Virus record (IMG/VR): IMGVR_UViG_3300034683_000017 | Coordinates: 1 to 46,094 of that record | DNA from: a virus | Reading direction: 5' to 3' (one strand) | DNA: 46,094 bases | Part shown: positions 40,119 to 44,791 of the stretch, piece by piece | Position numbering within the stretch: the stretch's first letter is position 1 | Layout of the letters: each line of letters starts with the position of its first letter | Position numbers and translations under genes: made by a program | The notes under the pieces: generated by a model | What the model saw: only the letters and a program-made list of their open reading frames with translations | The model's database searches: none | What the model was told of the DNA's origin: nothing

Positions 40119-40133
40119 CGGGCCAGTTTGGTT
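40104..40133. terminator. Strong hairpin terminator after portal
   Basis: A 10-bp perfect stem AAACTGGCCC/GGGCCAGTTT with loop AGTAAC, lying between convergent portal and methyltransferase genes. Confidence 0.8.
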
Positions 40134-40835
40134 TATTTCCTCAGTTTAAAAAGTTTTTCAATCGATGGTTTCGAACCGCCTGACACACCGTTTGCACTCA
40201 GGCTACTTTTAGTGTGAACCTCCAGAATGCACTCAAAATCAGAAGGTGCGGTATATTCACTAACAAAAACATCGCTGCTTTTCGATATTTGTCGCGCCCA
40301 TTCCCAGAATTTATCATTGTCAAAACCATCTTTGTACCCTGTTGTTCCCGCGTAGGGTGGGTCGCAATATACGACTGAGCCTTCCGGGATGGCTAACTCA
40401 TCATATCTCAAACTAGTAAACACCACCCCGTGTAGATTTTTTTGCCTGCTTAACCGCACTCCGTATGGATTCGGACTGGTAGTCTCTGATGGTCCCATTC
40501 TTTGTTTCAACCACGTCCGCGAAGCCGCCGAACCACTTGCCGGAGTATGAACATGCAATTCCGGCCCACCCTATCAGGTAATCCGGACCGTTGAGTGACT
40601 TCAATTCGAGATATTGTTGCTTGTTTATCTTTTCAGGTACCCAACCCAATGTCAGTGCCTTAAACATTTCAATTACATATTTATTGGAATCATTGGCAAG
40701 CCTATAACGAGCATCTCGAACACCGTCTATCATGTTCATCCCGCCCGCGAAAGGTTCTATGTATATACTATCTGTAGTGGGTATCTTATTTAAAATATCA
40801 AATTTAAATCTCGATTTACTCCCCATGTATTTCAT
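40133..40835 (-). pseudogene. Dam-like adenine methyltransferase split at an A7 run
   Basis: Two frames together make one adenine methyltransferase. The first (40835 to 40413) starts MKYMGSKSRFKFDILNKIP and has EPFAGGMNM. The second continues from KNLHGVVFTSLRYDELAIPE to the catalytic VVYCDPPYAGTTGY and ends at 40133. They join if one base is dropped in the seven-A run at 40437-40443, giving about 233 aa. Methylation of adenine would protect against restriction. The slip may be an assembly error, a mutation or recoding. Confidence 0.75.
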
Positions 40836-41347
40836 TTCCGATACCCCGCATCATACAGAATCTTAGCCGCACCGATTGACACACCGGACAGCCGAACCAT
40901 CTCATCAATCGCACGTTCCGCTTCGGTGCGGAGTGGGCGGAAACAACGCGACCCAAAACATGCAGACAGTCCAGCACCTTTATCGTCCCAGTAAACGACC
41001 GCCACATTATTTCCGTCGCTTGTGGTTTTATGTGCGATAACCTCAACAATTTCGCCTTCTGCCGGAAGGATACCATAGAAGTCAGTCTCTATGTCGTATG
41101 TACCAATGGTGAATTCCACATCGATACCAACCGGCGGCAAACCTGTACCATCCCAGCTGTATTGTTCGCGCGTGACGATTGCTTCCCCTAACTCACGAGT
41201 GGTTAAGTCACTGTAATCCACCCTGAACCCATTATCATCCCAAAAGTGAACGCCAGGGATGAAGCAGTAAGAGGTAGCTTTTGATGCACCATCCGGCCAA
41301 CCGCCACGCTTTGGTAATTCCTGACGTAATAGTTCAAGTAATGTCAT
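40832..41347 (-). CDS. Conserved phage hypothetical protein
   Basis: This is a 171-aa protein. It carries the pattern of a common enterophage protein of unknown role: PPVGIDVEFTIGTYD, EGEIVEVIAHKTTSDG, then SRCFRPLRTEAERAIDEM, ending ILYDAGYRK. First gene of the leftward island with the Dam-like gene, overlapping it by ATGA. Confidence 0.7.
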   Translation of the reverse strand: MTLLELLRQELPKRGGWPDGASKATSYCFIPGVHFWDDNGFRVDYSDLTTRELGEAIVTREQYSWDGTGLPPVGIDVEFTIGTYDIETDFYGILPAEGEIVEVIAHKTTSDGNNVAVVYWDDKGAGLSACFGSRCFRPLRTEAERAIDEMVRLSGVSIGAAKILYDAGYRK

Positions 41348-41384
41348 CTCTCTTCTCCTGTGATATTATTTAACTAACACATAC

Positions 41385-41413
41385 ACTCTATACCATACCG
41401 ACGGAGCCGTCAA
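41385..41413 (-). promoter_or_regulatory. Leftward promoter; operator doubles as SD of the rightward gene
   Basis: -35 TTGACG, 17 bases, -10 TAGAGT (leftward). Operator CCGACG-GAGC-CGTCAA (41398-41413). On the other strand the GGAG in its centre lies 9 bases before ATG 41416 and is that gene's SD. Confidence 0.75.
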
Positions 41414-41415
41414 AC

Positions 41416-43152
41416 ATGTCACGACAAACAGAGCTGAATTACTATCGCCAGCTGAAACAGATTGCCCGGCTTGTTCGTGAGGATGTGGACGCCAACATCG
41501 TTCCGCTGGTGAAACAGCTTGCGCCGGAGTACACCGCCGACGGCTGGAGTGATACCATCACCTCGGCGATTAACCAGTTGCTCACACGGTGGCTAGGTGC
41601 GTTTGCCCGTCGTCAGGCTGAAACCATCGCGTCACAGTTTGTACAGACTGCTGCAAAGGATAACGCCCGTACATTCGCCATCAATCTGTACGGCGGTGAT
41701 ACGCAGTTGCAGGAATATCTCAGCGCTGCATCGTATCAGAATGCTAAACTAATTCAGTCCATTCCGGCTCAGTATCTGGAGCAGGTGCAGAACATTGTCA
41801 TGAGCAACATGCGTAACGGTATGCGCCCCAGTTACATTGAGGAGGCACTCGTTAAGCAGTTTGGCATCACGGAACGTCGCGCTAAATTAATTGCCAGGGA
41901 TCAAACCAGTAAGATACAGGGTGATATGAACCGTATCCGCCAGACGAACAGCGGTATTGAGTATTTCAAATGGGTAACATCACAGGATGAGCGGGTACGT
42001 CACAGTCACGTTGAAGTTGCGAAGCGCGATGTGGGATTCGGTGAAGGCGTATTCCGCTGGGATGATTTGCCGGTTGTCGATGGTGTTCCTACTTTTCCCG
42101 GTCAGCCGATAAATTGTTTCCCGGGCACCTCACCATTGAACGTCTTCTACGGTGCTGAAAAAGCGTTTAGGCATTGGTTTAGCGGCGAACTTACCGTTCT
42201 GGTCACGGAATCTGGTGAACGCATCGAATGTACACCTAATCACCCGGTGCTTACCGATAAAGGTTTCGTCGCTGCTCACTTGTTGAATGTTGGTGATAAT
42301 ATCGTCTACGTTCCGCAACAGACTTTCAACATCTCTGAAAAAGACGCCCACAGTTCGAATATTGTATTCAGCGAGTTTTTTAATGCGGCTCAGTTGATAG
42401 GGGTCAGTGGTAAACCTGTTCGGGCACTTGGTGGTGAGTTCCACGGCGACATTTCCGCAAACGAGGAAATCGAGGTTATAGACTTCAACTGGGTGTTGCC
42501 CAATGAATTCTATTCCACGCTGGGTAAGAATTTCTTTGAACTCTTTTTCACCAGGGCCGAAGAAGTGTTCAGTTTGGTTGATGCACCGTGTGACAGCAAT
42601 CTTACATCTGTGGTCAAAGGTTTGACTTTTGCCCCTGACAGCGTCGTGAGCAGCGCGTGTAAGTTGTTGTCGTTCGTGAGCGCTGGTTTTACTCATCCGA
42701 ATGAACATCGCCTCACTGTGGTTGGCTTGCTTTATTCCAGACTCGTTGAGAATGCGAGTGATGACGTTGCGAGAAGTGTTCAATTCTTCAGCAATTGCTT
42801 TGACACTCATGCCAGCGTCGATGCGCGTCACAATCTGTTCAAGCGGTATATTTTGGCGATTGTGCGCAGTGCGTTTGGTTTTGGGGATTTCCAGACCCCG
42901 GGCGCGAATTCGTTTACTGAGTGCATCGGCACCAACGCCGAGAATTTCACCAACGGCTTTGACACTGTGACCATCAAGCATCAATTGGTACGCATTATCG
43001 ATAAGACTTTCAGGGAATTTAGCGGCCATGTGCATAATCTCCAAATGGAAAGAGGTTTATTTGTATCGCATAATTTTGCCGTAAGTAATTGCCGCTGTGT
43101 GGCGAGACCAGTTACAGCGGCAGCAGTGGAGCGGTATAAGGCTAAGAATTAG
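41416..43152 (+). CDS. Minor head (morphogenesis) protein with intein
   Basis: This is a 578-aa precursor. The exteins (residues 1-233 and the last 20) give a 253-aa SPP1 gp7/Mu F-like head protein: ERRAKLIARDQTSKIQGDMN, RVRHSHVEV and the junction PGQPIN+CRCVARPV. The intein spans 42115-43089. The protein links portal and capsid or scaffold. The insertion lies at the most conserved point of the family, as usual for inteins. SD GGAG is within the operator just upstream. Confidence 0.9.
   Translation: MSRQTELNYYRQLKQIARLVREDVDANIVPLVKQLAPEYTADGWSDTITSAINQLLTRWLGAFARRQAETIASQFVQTAAKDNARTFAINLYGGDTQLQEYLSAASYQNAKLIQSIPAQYLEQVQNIVMSNMRNGMRPSYIEEALVKQFGITERRAKLIARDQTSKIQGDMNRIRQTNSGIEYFKWVTSQDERVRHSHVEVAKRDVGFGEGVFRWDDLPVVDGVPTFPGQPINCFPGTSPLNVFYGAEKAFRHWFSGELTVLVTESGERIECTPNHPVLTDKGFVAAHLLNVGDNIVYVPQQTFNISEKDAHSSNIVFSEFFNAAQLIGVSGKPVRALGGEFHGDISANEEIEVIDFNWVLPNEFYSTLGKNFFELFFTRAEEVFSLVDAPCDSNLTSVVKGLTFAPDSVVSSACKLLSFVSAGFTHPNEHRLTVVGLLYSRLVENASDDVARSVQFFSNCFDTHASVDARHNLFKRYILAIVRSAFGFGDFQTPGANSFTECIGTNAENFTNGFDTVTIKHQLVRIIDKTFREFSGHVHNLQMERGLFVSHNFAVSNCRCVARPVTAAAVERYKAKN
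42115..43089 (+). mobile_element. Intein (325 aa), protein-splicing element
   Basis: It starts with Cys1 (CFPGTSPLNVFYGAEKAFRH) and has block B ECTPNHPVLTDKGF. The end is block F/G: HVHNLQMERGLFVSHNFAVSN, followed by Cys of the C-extein. The penultimate residue is Ser, not the usual His. Where inteins normally carry a same-strand endonuclease domain, this one has about 200 residues without recognisable motifs. Those codons are the reverse complement of an endonuclease-like gene on the other strand. Confidence 0.85.
42130..43029 (-). CDS. Antisense homing-endonuclease-like gene nested in intein
   Basis: This is a 299-aa protein from ATG 43029 (SD GGAG, 9 bases). Two HTH repeats lie near the start (SVKAVGEILGVGADALSKRI and SVKAIAEELNTSRNVITRIL). 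A PD-(D/E)XK/Vsr-like core follows: EFKEILTQRGIEFIGQHPV, YNLDFLV, NVAVELTT, KLAEYNIRTVGVFF. Layout resembles HTH-Vsr-type phage homing endonucleases. Codons are in exact register with the intein on the other strand, so TTA, CTA and TCA are never used in its 18 Leu and 15 Ser codons. The last 60 residues lie opposite the intein splicing domain. Confidence 0.75.
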   Translation of the reverse strand: MAAKFPESLIDNAYQLMLDGHSVKAVGEILGVGADALSKRIRARGLEIPKTKRTAHNRQNIPLEQIVTRIDAGMSVKAIAEELNTSRNVITRILNESGIKQANHSEAMFIRMSKTSAHERQQLTRAAHDAVRGKSQTFDHRCKIAVTRCINQTEHFFGPGEKEFKEILTQRGIEFIGQHPVEVYNLDFLVCGNVAVELTTKCPNRFTTDPYQLSRIKKLAEYNIRTVGVFFRDVESLLRNVDDIITNIQQVSSDETFIGKHRVIRCTFDAFTRFRDQNGKFAAKPMPKRFFSTVEDVQW

Positions 43153-43160
43153 TCATCCGT

Positions 43161-43349
43161 TCATTTCCCACGTCCTCTGAACACCCGATTTAACACCTCC
43201 CACAGTCCGGCAAATACAGCAACCGGGCCAAATGCAACAATTGCCCATGCCTGCCACTTGTACTCCATTTCCAGAGGCAGCGTGGCGATTGTTGATATAA
43301 TTACCCACCCCGCAAGCAGGATAATCAGTACACCTTTAATAATACCCAT
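43161..43349 (-). CDS. Small membrane protein (two spans)
   Basis: This 62-aa protein has membrane segments near 5-22 (KGVLIILLAGWVIISTIA) and 33-50 (AWAIVAFGPVAVFAGLW) and a basic end. It is last in a leftward island of small genes and overlaps the gene before it by one base. Function unknown. Confidence 0.68.
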   Translation of the reverse strand: MGIIKGVLIILLAGWVIISTIATLPLEMEYKWQAWAIVAFGPVAVFAGLWEVLNRVFRGRGK

Positions 43350-43546
43350 TAGCCCACCACCTTATTAACAAGTTGATTCATCTCGACCCACCGTTGAGAT
43401 ACCGAGCCATCCTCTTTGGTTGCGGTGAAGGTCACAATATCCTTGAGGAAGTTCATTTTGAAGTTTGTCACGGTGATAACACCGTCCACATCGATAAATT
43501 TGTCATTGTTGCGGAGCATTACCGCTTTGATAGGTTTACAATTCAT
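43349..43546 (-). CDS. Small beta-rich hypothetical protein
   Basis: This 65-aa protein has LRNNDKFIDVDGVITVTNF and DIVTFTATKEDGSVSQRW. It resembles the 35636-35842 protein in pattern (DKF, gap, V-x-N, gap, FT), so the two may be distant paralogues. Starts on ATGA overlap. Confidence 0.62.
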   Translation of the reverse strand: MNCKPIKAVMLRNNDKFIDVDGVITVTNFKMNFLKDIVTFTATKEDGSVSQRWVEMNQLVNKVVG

Positions 43547-43695
43547 TTTCCATACGCCTCACGTAATGCAGCGTTAGCGAGCGCCCAATCTTCATGCTTG
43601 CGTGCAAGCTGTTGTGCGACCTTTAACAGTTCACGGTCAATGATGCGTGCTTGTGACACGGGACGGTCGTAACCTGGAAGTAATGTGTTATTCAT
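43543..43695 (-). CDS. Small hypothetical protein
   Basis: A 50-aa ORF, MNNTLLPGYDRPVSQARIID then helical, ending ANAALREAYGK. SD is in the AGAGAGGGT leader. It is the first gene after the palindromic promoter 43725-43754 and overlaps the next by ATGA. Unrecognised. Confidence 0.65.
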   Translation of the reverse strand: MNNTLLPGYDRPVSQARIIDRELLKVAQQLARKHEDWALANAALREAYGK

Positions 43696-43724
43696 GGTCT
43701 ACCCTCTCTGTTGTTGATAAACTG

Positions 43725-43754
43725 AGTATACGTCATCCCTGACGAACTCGTCAA
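43725..43754 (-). promoter_or_regulatory. Leftward promoter with palindromic operator
   Basis: -35 TTGACG, 18 bases, -10 TATACT (leftward); operator CTGACG-AACT-CGTCAA (43739-43754). It overlaps the stop of the 18-aa peptide upstream. Confidence 0.75.
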
Positions 43755-43807
43755 CATAAATATTTGACCCAAATCACAACACCGACACAAAGCAGGATGT
43801 ACTCCAT
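43751..43807 (-). CDS. Very small membrane peptide (18 aa)
   Basis: MEYILLCVGVVIWVKYLC is almost wholly hydrophobic. It has a strong SD (AGGAG, 7 bases from ATG) overlapping the previous gene's stop, so it is a believable translated peptide. It would sit in the inner membrane. Function unknown. Confidence 0.5.
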   Translation of the reverse strand: MEYILLCVGVVIWVKYLC

Positions 43808-43811
43808 AGTG

Positions 43812-44018
43812 TCACTCCTGCGGCGGTTCGGGTAATGGTTGCCAGTGTGTGACTTCTTCACTCGTGAAAGAGTGTTCCCCGTAGAAATTACAATAGGAAA
43901 ACGTTTCGTCATCCACATCGAAATGAAATTCCCCTGGCTTTTCCCATCCAGCACCGTAACCAATGACGCACCCATCTTCCGTCGGCATCCGCTCACTACA
44001 CTTAATCCAGTCTGCCAT
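43812..44018 (-). CDS. DUF551-like small protein
   Basis: This 68-aa protein starts MADWIKCSERMPTEDGCVIG and ends THWQPLPEPP, the hallmarks of the DUF551 family common in enterobacterial phages and prophages. Role unknown. It overlaps the preceding gene. Confidence 0.85.
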   Translation of the reverse strand: MADWIKCSERMPTEDGCVIGYGAGWEKPGEFHFDVDDETFSYCNFYGEHSFTSEEVTHWQPLPEPPQE

Positions 44019-44196
44019 ACAATGTCCCCACTCGTTTCAAATCGCGCTGTGCGTGGCAGCTGTAAGTACCATCGTCCCACTGTACATAGTAGCGCGGTGG
44101 CTCATCGGTCATTACGTTTGCGACAACACCCGTAACGACACCATTGGGGAACAACTTCACAAGTGTCCCAGTTGGGTAGCGTGGGATAGTTGTCAT
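44002..44196 (-). CDS. Small SH3-like hypothetical protein
   Basis: A 64-aa protein from ATG 44196 (SD within GAGGGTGAG). Sequence YPTGTLVKLFPNGVVTGVV then PRYYVQWDDGTYSCHAQRDL resembles small beta-barrel proteins of phages. It overlaps the DUF551 gene by 17 bases. Confidence 0.6.
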   Translation of the reverse strand: MTTIPRYPTGTLVKLFPNGVVTGVVANVMTDEPPRYYVQWDDGTYSCHAQRDLKRVGTLYGRLD

Positions 44197-44198
44197 AA

Positions 44199-44327
44199 TC
44201 ACTCACCCTCGTACAACGGTTTCAGTTGATACCCGAACATAACGGCGTTGCTATGTGCCACACTGCCCGCGCGGACCAGATATGTCGTACCGCGGTTAGT
44301 TGTTACTTCATATGCGTATGGTTTCAT
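44199..44327 (-). CDS. Small hypothetical protein (KPYAYEV type)
   Basis: A 42-aa ORF starting MKPYAYEVTTNRGTTYLVRA, a start often seen in tiny enterophage proteins. SD GGAGGGT 5 bases before ATG. It overlaps the previous gene's end. Function unknown. Confidence 0.65.
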   Translation of the reverse strand: MKPYAYEVTTNRGTTYLVRAGSVAHSNAVMFGYQLKPLYEGE

Positions 44328-44791
44328 TTGTCACCCTCCGACAGTTCAATTGCACGTTTGGCGCTCGCCAGGATGTCTTTTAAATCTTCACTTGCGTCCT
44401 TGTGTCCACGCTGGCCGACCGCTAAAGCCTTTTTAATCAGGTGTTGAAGTGCAGGACATGTGACATTGAACGCTTTGAGAACGTCATAAACGTCAATGGT
44501 GATACCCTTGCAAGGGCGATTGTATTTGCTGTCATTAATTGGTACAGGTTCACGTTGGGCGATAATTGCTATGTTGGAAGTACCGTTGACATCTCTTTCA
44601 TCAAGCGTATTGCAATTATCAAGACTTGACACACTGGGCCACCAGATTCTGTCCCCCACACTTTGTGAACCATTACAGTTTTCCTCATATCCGATGTTGC
44701 CGGTTCCCAACTGTCTTATCACTTGCTTACACCAATCCGGCGCACCTTCGAAGTCCTTTTCACTACCGATAATGTAGTTCCACGTGGTCAT
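44324..44791 (-). CDS. Conserved phage hypothetical protein
   Basis: A 155-aa protein with two parts: an N-terminal Gly/Asn-rich region and a C-terminal conserved helical domain (GITIDVYDVLKAFNVTCPA, LAVGQRGHKDASEDLKDI). I recall this C-terminal pattern from many enterobacterial phage proteins of unknown role. First gene of the leftward island, SD AAGGAG. Confidence 0.72.
   Translation of the reverse strand: MTTWNYIIGSEKDFEGAPDWCKQVIRQLGTGNIGYEENCNGSQSVGDRIWWPSVSSLDNCNTLDERDVNGTSNIAIIAQREPVPINDSKYNRPCKGITIDVYDVLKAFNVTCPALQHLIKKALAVGQRGHKDASEDLKDILASAKRAIELSEGDK

Follow-up and report, generated by a model that had tools for sequence, protein, structure and literature searches.

An intein in a phage minor head gene with a homing-endonuclease-like gene on its opposite strand

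The head gene, its intein and the antisense reading frame

The window analysed here, a stretch of 46,094 nucleotides (IMG/VR virus record IMGVR_UViG_3300034683_000017), resembles Klebsiella phages; its intein-less near-relative, Klebsiella phage phiYH65, is classed as Jedunavirus. A MuF-type minor head ORF of 578 aa runs uninterrupted from 41416 to 43152 (+). Pfam matched Phage_Mu_F at aa 123-234 of this ORF (1.5e-11) and gave a weak, sub-threshold match to Intein_splicing. On the opposite strand of the intein lies a second ORF, 42130-43044 (-), which reads as 304 aa from the TTG at 43044 or 299 aa from the ATG at 43029. ATG 43035 is another possible upstream start. The features of the locus are as follows.

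41416-42114, + strand: N-extein of the MuF-type minor head gene, 233 aa (Phage_Mu_F; intein-less homologues align across the junction)
42115-43089, + strand: intein, 325 aa, Cys1 to Asn and then Cys+1 (phiYH65 empty site, conserved splice motifs, Foldseek)
42115-42330, + strand: intein N-terminal splicing region with block A, CFPG.. (AlphaFold pLDDT 69-90)
about 42232-42255, + strand: intein block B, TPNHPVLT, within the N-terminal splicing region
42490-42975, + strand: intein linker, residues 126-287, low-confidence or disordered on the sense strand (AlphaFold pLDDT about 22-44)
42976-43089, + strand: intein C-terminal splicing region with block G, ..VSN (AlphaFold pLDDT 68-93)
about 43024-43041, + strand: intein block F, GHVHNL, within the C-terminal splicing region
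43090-43149, + strand: C-extein, starting with the conserved MuF CRC motif
42130-43029, - strand: homing-endonuclease-like gene, 299 aa, coding 43029-42133, with the stop extending to 42130
43039-43042, - strand: Shine-Dalgarno GGAG of the antisense gene, the complement of block F codons, 9 nt before ATG 43029
42901-43011, - strand: first helix-turn-helix unit, residues 7-43 (AlphaFold helices; 2lvs profile match)
42742-42843, - strand: second helix-turn-helix unit, residues 63-96 (Pfam HTH_7 8.9e-8, HTH_23 6.3e-7; AlphaFold)
42271-42549, - strand: Vsr-like PD-(D/E)XK core, residues 161-253, with E161, YNLD187 and E197 (conservation; 3r3p)
42439-42480, - strand: catalytic motif YNLDFLVCGNVAVE, whose complement reads as the sense motif FHGDISANEEIEVI
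42136-42252, - strand: C-terminal beta hairpin of the endonuclease, facing the N-terminal splicing domain of the intein (AlphaFold; both strands conserved)

The intein begins with the nucleophile Cys1 at 42115, which is kept in most relatives, carries the block B motif TxxH as TPNH, and ends in SN|C at 43089/43090, with Asn followed by Cys, where inteins have Cys, Ser or Thr. The penultimate residue of inteins is usually His; it is Ser in the window and many relatives and His in others. The best Foldseek matches of the intein model were inteins, and the model was confident only in the splicing parts. The linker between them had a mean pLDDT of about 26, and no recognisable domain was found in it on the sense strand. 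In a DNA alignment, window positions 41342-42116 and 43087-43148 matched one continuous stretch of the phiYH65 gene, which puts the empty site, give or take a few shared bases, at 42114/42115 and 43089/43090, and the joined exteins matched that gene at 98.8% in a single piece. Uninterrupted alleles also occur in relatives from Salmonella (FSL SP-101) and Gordonia (YorkOnyx).

The two frames lie in exact antisense codon register, with sense position 1 paired with antisense position 3, and none of the 33 Leu and Ser codons of the antisense gene is TTA, CTA or TCA. A first-pass annotation made from the letters alone had proposed the intein at 42115-43089, the good Shine-Dalgarno sequence, the register and the codon avoidance. 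The boundaries agree with the empty site of phiYH65 and the comparison of intein-plus and intein-minus head genes, a ribosome-binding motif precedes the ATG, and a recount gave the same codon numbers with both frames open.

Signals are also shared between the strands across the family. In most loci the start codon of the endonuclease gene is formed by the strand opposite the CAT (His) of block F, and its Shine-Dalgarno sequence (GAGG or GGAG) by the strand opposite the Asn-Leu codons after that His. CTC is used at the Leu facing the Shine-Dalgarno sequence in most loci, compared with 10-45% of Leu codons elsewhere. Similarly, the sense motif FHGD..DGE(I/V)E(I/V) corresponds exactly, on the opposite strand, to the endonuclease motif YN(L/I)DFAVGNVAVE, and its conservation in these inteins is explained by the putative active site that it complements.

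The rightward head gene is flanked on both sides by leftward cassettes of small genes (window 40133-41347 and 43161-44791, both -), as it is in the intein-less phiYH65, and the antisense gene thus lies within a leftward stretch. A promoter scan of the window for leftward promoters gave consensus matches near chance level and was uninformative.

The antisense protein and its relatives

A profile of 33 family members matched 3r3p (I-Bth0305I) over the nuclease core (E=4.8e-6); its N-terminal part matched several helix-turn-helix proteins. The AlphaFold model of the antisense protein, for which the alignment rows comprised only the window and IMG/VR loci, had a mean pLDDT of 88 and high confidence over almost its whole length, also in the C-terminal hairpin that faces the splicing domain. 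Its top Foldseek match in the PDB was again 3r3p (probability 1.00, TM 0.65 on the target, with a modest E=3.2e-3). Among the 33 sequences, Y184, D187 and E197 are invariant and E161 is nearly so; the later His and Asp positions of the EDxHD signature are not clearly conserved. As judged from these residues, the E-D-E arrangement is the pattern of a PD-(D/E)XK nuclease. Pfam MTES_1575, Vsr and DUF559 matched some relatives weakly, below curated cut-offs. The prediction of a 299-aa protein with two helix-turn-helix repeats and a Vsr/PD-(D/E)XK-like core is therefore supported by profile searches, Pfam, AlphaFold and Foldseek; the lack of any structural match to nucleases, which would have spoken against it, did not occur.

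The arrangement is far more general than the window alone could reveal. A tblastn search with the antisense protein found 125 phage records, and later searches added IMG/VR contigs, bacterial assemblies and two phage-like plasmids; a search of viral contigs with the window protein alone found no contigs. Every one of the 66 intein loci examined (55 after removal of redundancy at 90% aa) has both frames open along the entire endonuclease gene, and the codon register is the same in each. No stops in relatives that keep the intein, which would have refuted the proposal, were encountered. Most relatives were found through endonuclease similarity, so that inteins that had lost the endonuclease would be under-sampled; a search driven by the intein recovered nearly the same organisms and about as many records (106 vs 107). 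Hosts or sources include Klebsiella, Edwardsiella, Aggregatibacter, Vibrio, Salmonella, Escherichia, Pantoea, Pseudomonas, Idiomarinaceae, Helicobacter, Gordonia, Mycobacterium, Rhodococcus and Streptomyces, together with a Chloroflexota plasmid and a Zixiibacteriota assembly. Occurrence of the same arrangement in about 55 distinct relatives from several bacterial phyla implies that the two proteins have long been encoded together by the same DNA.

Almost all elements share the insertion site N|C[RK][CS] of MuF proteins. The element of E. coli phage KMB36 lies at another site, before CRARDGM, and that of Rhodococcus phage REQ3 has Ala as the first intein residue, is followed by CGH and has a shortened endonuclease. 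The two plasmids are phage-like replicons of Candidatus Promineifilum breve (Chloroflexota) and Streptomyces platensis (L056 2333-4030 and L057 2102-3931).

Homologues of the endonuclease also occur as free-standing genes in two Acinetobacter Obolenskvirus phages (L006 and L021) and an IMG/VR relative (L054). In L006 and L021 the free-standing gene is convergent with an intein-less head gene. A split intein was considered for L006, and reading of all frames resolved the locus into an intein-less head gene (..MCKCRAKLI..) and the convergent endonuclease gene. The three free-standing copies contain 12-13 TTA, CTA or TCA codons among 39-42 Leu and Ser codons, whereas the embedded copies contain none; in the latter such codons would be stops in the sense intein frame. 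The free-standing copies are under purifying selection (6/6/27 changes by codon position), including their last 50 codons (0/1/6), so that the C-terminal part of the endonuclease is functional without an intein opposite. In a midpoint-rooted tree they fall among the embedded copies, in a supported group of 14 sequences that includes the window. This suggests that the free-standing copies may have escaped from an intein, though midpoint rooting is no proof.

Selection on the two strands and horizontal movement

In the exteins the excess of changes falls on sense position 3, in 21 of 21 comparisons of N-exteins. In the linker the bias is reversed: sense position 1, the wobble position of the antisense frame, changed more often than position 3 in 22 of 23 locus pairs (sign P=6e-6), or about 21 of 22 if one near-duplicate pair is set aside. 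Across an earlier set of 13 pairs, not all of them independent, linker identity was 68% for the antisense protein vs 55% for the sense protein. These substitution patterns show that, across the linker, it is the antisense protein that selection maintains. Where the final 50 antisense codons face the N-terminal splicing domain, rates of change were 0.25 at position 1 and 0.30 at position 3, vs 0.58 at extein position 3, and identity was 72% for the sense and 66% for the antisense protein. Since the rates at both positions are similarly reduced and both proteins are conserved, a dual constraint is indicated there, with both strands constrained where the antisense C-terminus faces the splicing domain. 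The earlier annotation had anticipated such a constraint over the last 60 or so codons and had called for a test of selection on both strands; counted by codon position, substitutions bear out the former over the last 50 codons and place selection on the antisense strand in the linker.

The distribution of the element implies horizontal movement. Between E. coli phage Snoke and Salmonella phage jersey, position-3 divergence is 0.04-0.06 in the intein vs 0.59 in the head gene, and Gordonia phages Vivi2 and Kewpiedoll have near-identical exteins and distantly related inteins at the same site. In the Gordonia flanks, divergence is 0.07-0.11 within about 360 nt of the insertion vs 0.01-0.07 further out. 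This slightly raised divergence may reflect co-conversion, for which it is suggestive only.

Interpretation and comparison with known systems

With both frames, the empty site, the family, antisense selection, C-terminal dual constraint and horizontal transfer established computationally, the element is very probably a mobile intein with its homing endonuclease encoded separately, by a gene on the opposite strand in exact codon register; its splicing, expression, cleavage and homing are inferred. The sense strand would encode a Hint splicing domain and a poorly conserved linker that are spliced out of the minor head protein, keeping that protein intact. From the antisense strand, a Vsr-like endonuclease related to I-Bth0305I, with helix-turn-helix DNA binding, would be translated from a leftward transcript, with its ribosome-binding site and start codon within the complement of block F. 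In a mixed infection the enzyme may then cut intein-less head genes of the other phages at their conserved NCRC-coding site, and the element would be copied into the cut gene during repair.

If the antisense ORF were a non-functional shadow, its openness and similarity would only mirror sense conservation. From the rate of TTA, CTA and TCA in exteins, same-register frames would indeed open easily in several GC-rich Gordonia, Mycobacterium, Rhodococcus and Pseudomonas loci (chance 0.07-0.28), but the chance is about 1.4e-4 in the window alone and falls to 1e-11 in AT-rich loci. A mere shadow should not surpass the sense linker in identity, reverse its wobble bias, be modelled so much more confidently than that linker, resemble a known homing endonuclease fold or have free-standing homologues with no intein frame opposite; this reading can hardly be maintained. 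Codon-position patterns, predicted structures and the free-standing homologues instead support an independently selected antisense gene. Such a gene might still be expressed and selected as a DNA-binding regulator, or as a nuclease against competitor phages, that is merely sheltered in the intein. The strong matches of its two helix-turn-helix units to regulator-like proteins and the free-standing copies adjoining an intein-less head gene leave some room for this, but the catalytic residues are invariant, the nearest fold is that of a homing endonuclease, and the element occupies one precise insertion site in most phages and is transferred horizontally, so that we regard this role as improbable.

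Homing endonucleases commonly degenerate once fixed, and the window copy could by that general rule have died recently, leaving the element to be kept only by its intein. Its frame, start, Shine-Dalgarno sequence and catalytic residues are nevertheless all intact, few antisense changes separate it from RCIP0054 (98% identity over the linker), and intein-less Klebsiella alleles still circulate; a recent death therefore appears even less plausible than a sheltered regulator. Returning to the mobile intein with its opposite-strand endonuclease, we also lean, with much reserve, towards an ancient dual-strand element, in which the splicing domain and the C-terminal beta domain of the endonuclease, in perfect register on opposite strands and with the ribosome-binding site and start within the complement of an essential splicing motif, have been locked together across phages of several phyla.

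Several known systems share parts of this arrangement. I-Bth0305I and the Vsr-like (EDxHD) family have the same nuclease core (3r3p), the E...D...E active-site pattern and a homing role; the PDB describes I-Bth0305I as a mobile intron protein, whereas the window gene is antisense within an intein and has two N-terminal helix-turn-helix units. Canonical mobile inteins share with the element their Hint splicing blocks, a precise insertion point in a conserved motif and a sporadic distribution, but carry an in-frame LAGLIDADG or HNH endonuclease instead of a separate opposite-strand one facing a sense linker without recognisable domain. Dassa and colleagues reportedly described in 2009 "fractured genes" with split inteins, in which a Vsr-like endonuclease gene splits the host gene. 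The same endonuclease family is thus tied to phage inteins in both cases, but in the window a fractured gene or split intein can be rejected, as the head ORF is continuous (41416-43152) and the overlap is antisense. In phage ShiLan, an out-of-frame insertion without splicing blocks hides an HNH endonuclease in a methylase gene (PMC11855218). That insertion is also open in the frame of the host gene with the endonuclease in another frame, but the HNH gene starts with the insertion and uses its third forward frame, with no splicing domain (PMC11855218); the element in the window, where the endonuclease is Vsr-like and on the opposite strand and splicing blocks are present, is not of this type. 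The group I introns of Porphyra spiralis carry antisense His-Cys-box endonuclease genes (PMC2585584), and so, like the element, combine self-splicing and mobility with an endonuclease gene on the complementary strand. They are RNA elements, however, in which nothing requires the host strand to stay open as a protein frame, and many of their antisense endonuclease copies are degenerate (PMC2585584).

No literature report of an antisense endonuclease within an intein was found in a search that did not cover the 2025 preprint of Gosselin et al. on the "non-canonical architecture" of actinobacteriophage inteins. Novelty is provisional because that preprint may overlap the Gordonia and Mycobacterium cases. 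The mobility gene of an intein need not, on our reading, be an in-frame domain, and purifying selection may act for long evolutionary periods on two proteins that one stretch of DNA encodes in exact antisense register. If the dual-strand reading is true, the element is a natural, testable case of Rodin-Ohno sense/antisense coding. Because part of the overlap is predicted to be folded on both strands, the element is a tractable natural system in which to study antisense coding. It may also be useful for studying endonuclease expression apart from the host gene, and as a source of new splicing domains and nucleases.

The antisense endonuclease is carried by more than 100 deposited phage records and is almost always unannotated, so that surveys for in-frame domains would class these inteins as endonuclease-free. 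Several of the intein-containing minor head genes (e.g. NBSal007, ZCSE7) are deposited as "NAD+--asparagine ADP-ribosyltransferase", possibly a misannotation. In the leftward cassette upstream of the window head gene, a D12-class adenine methyltransferase (40133-40835, -) apparently occupies two overlapping ORFs in different frames, with the N-terminal match in 40413-40835 and the DPPY motif in 40133-40558, which suggests a frameshift.
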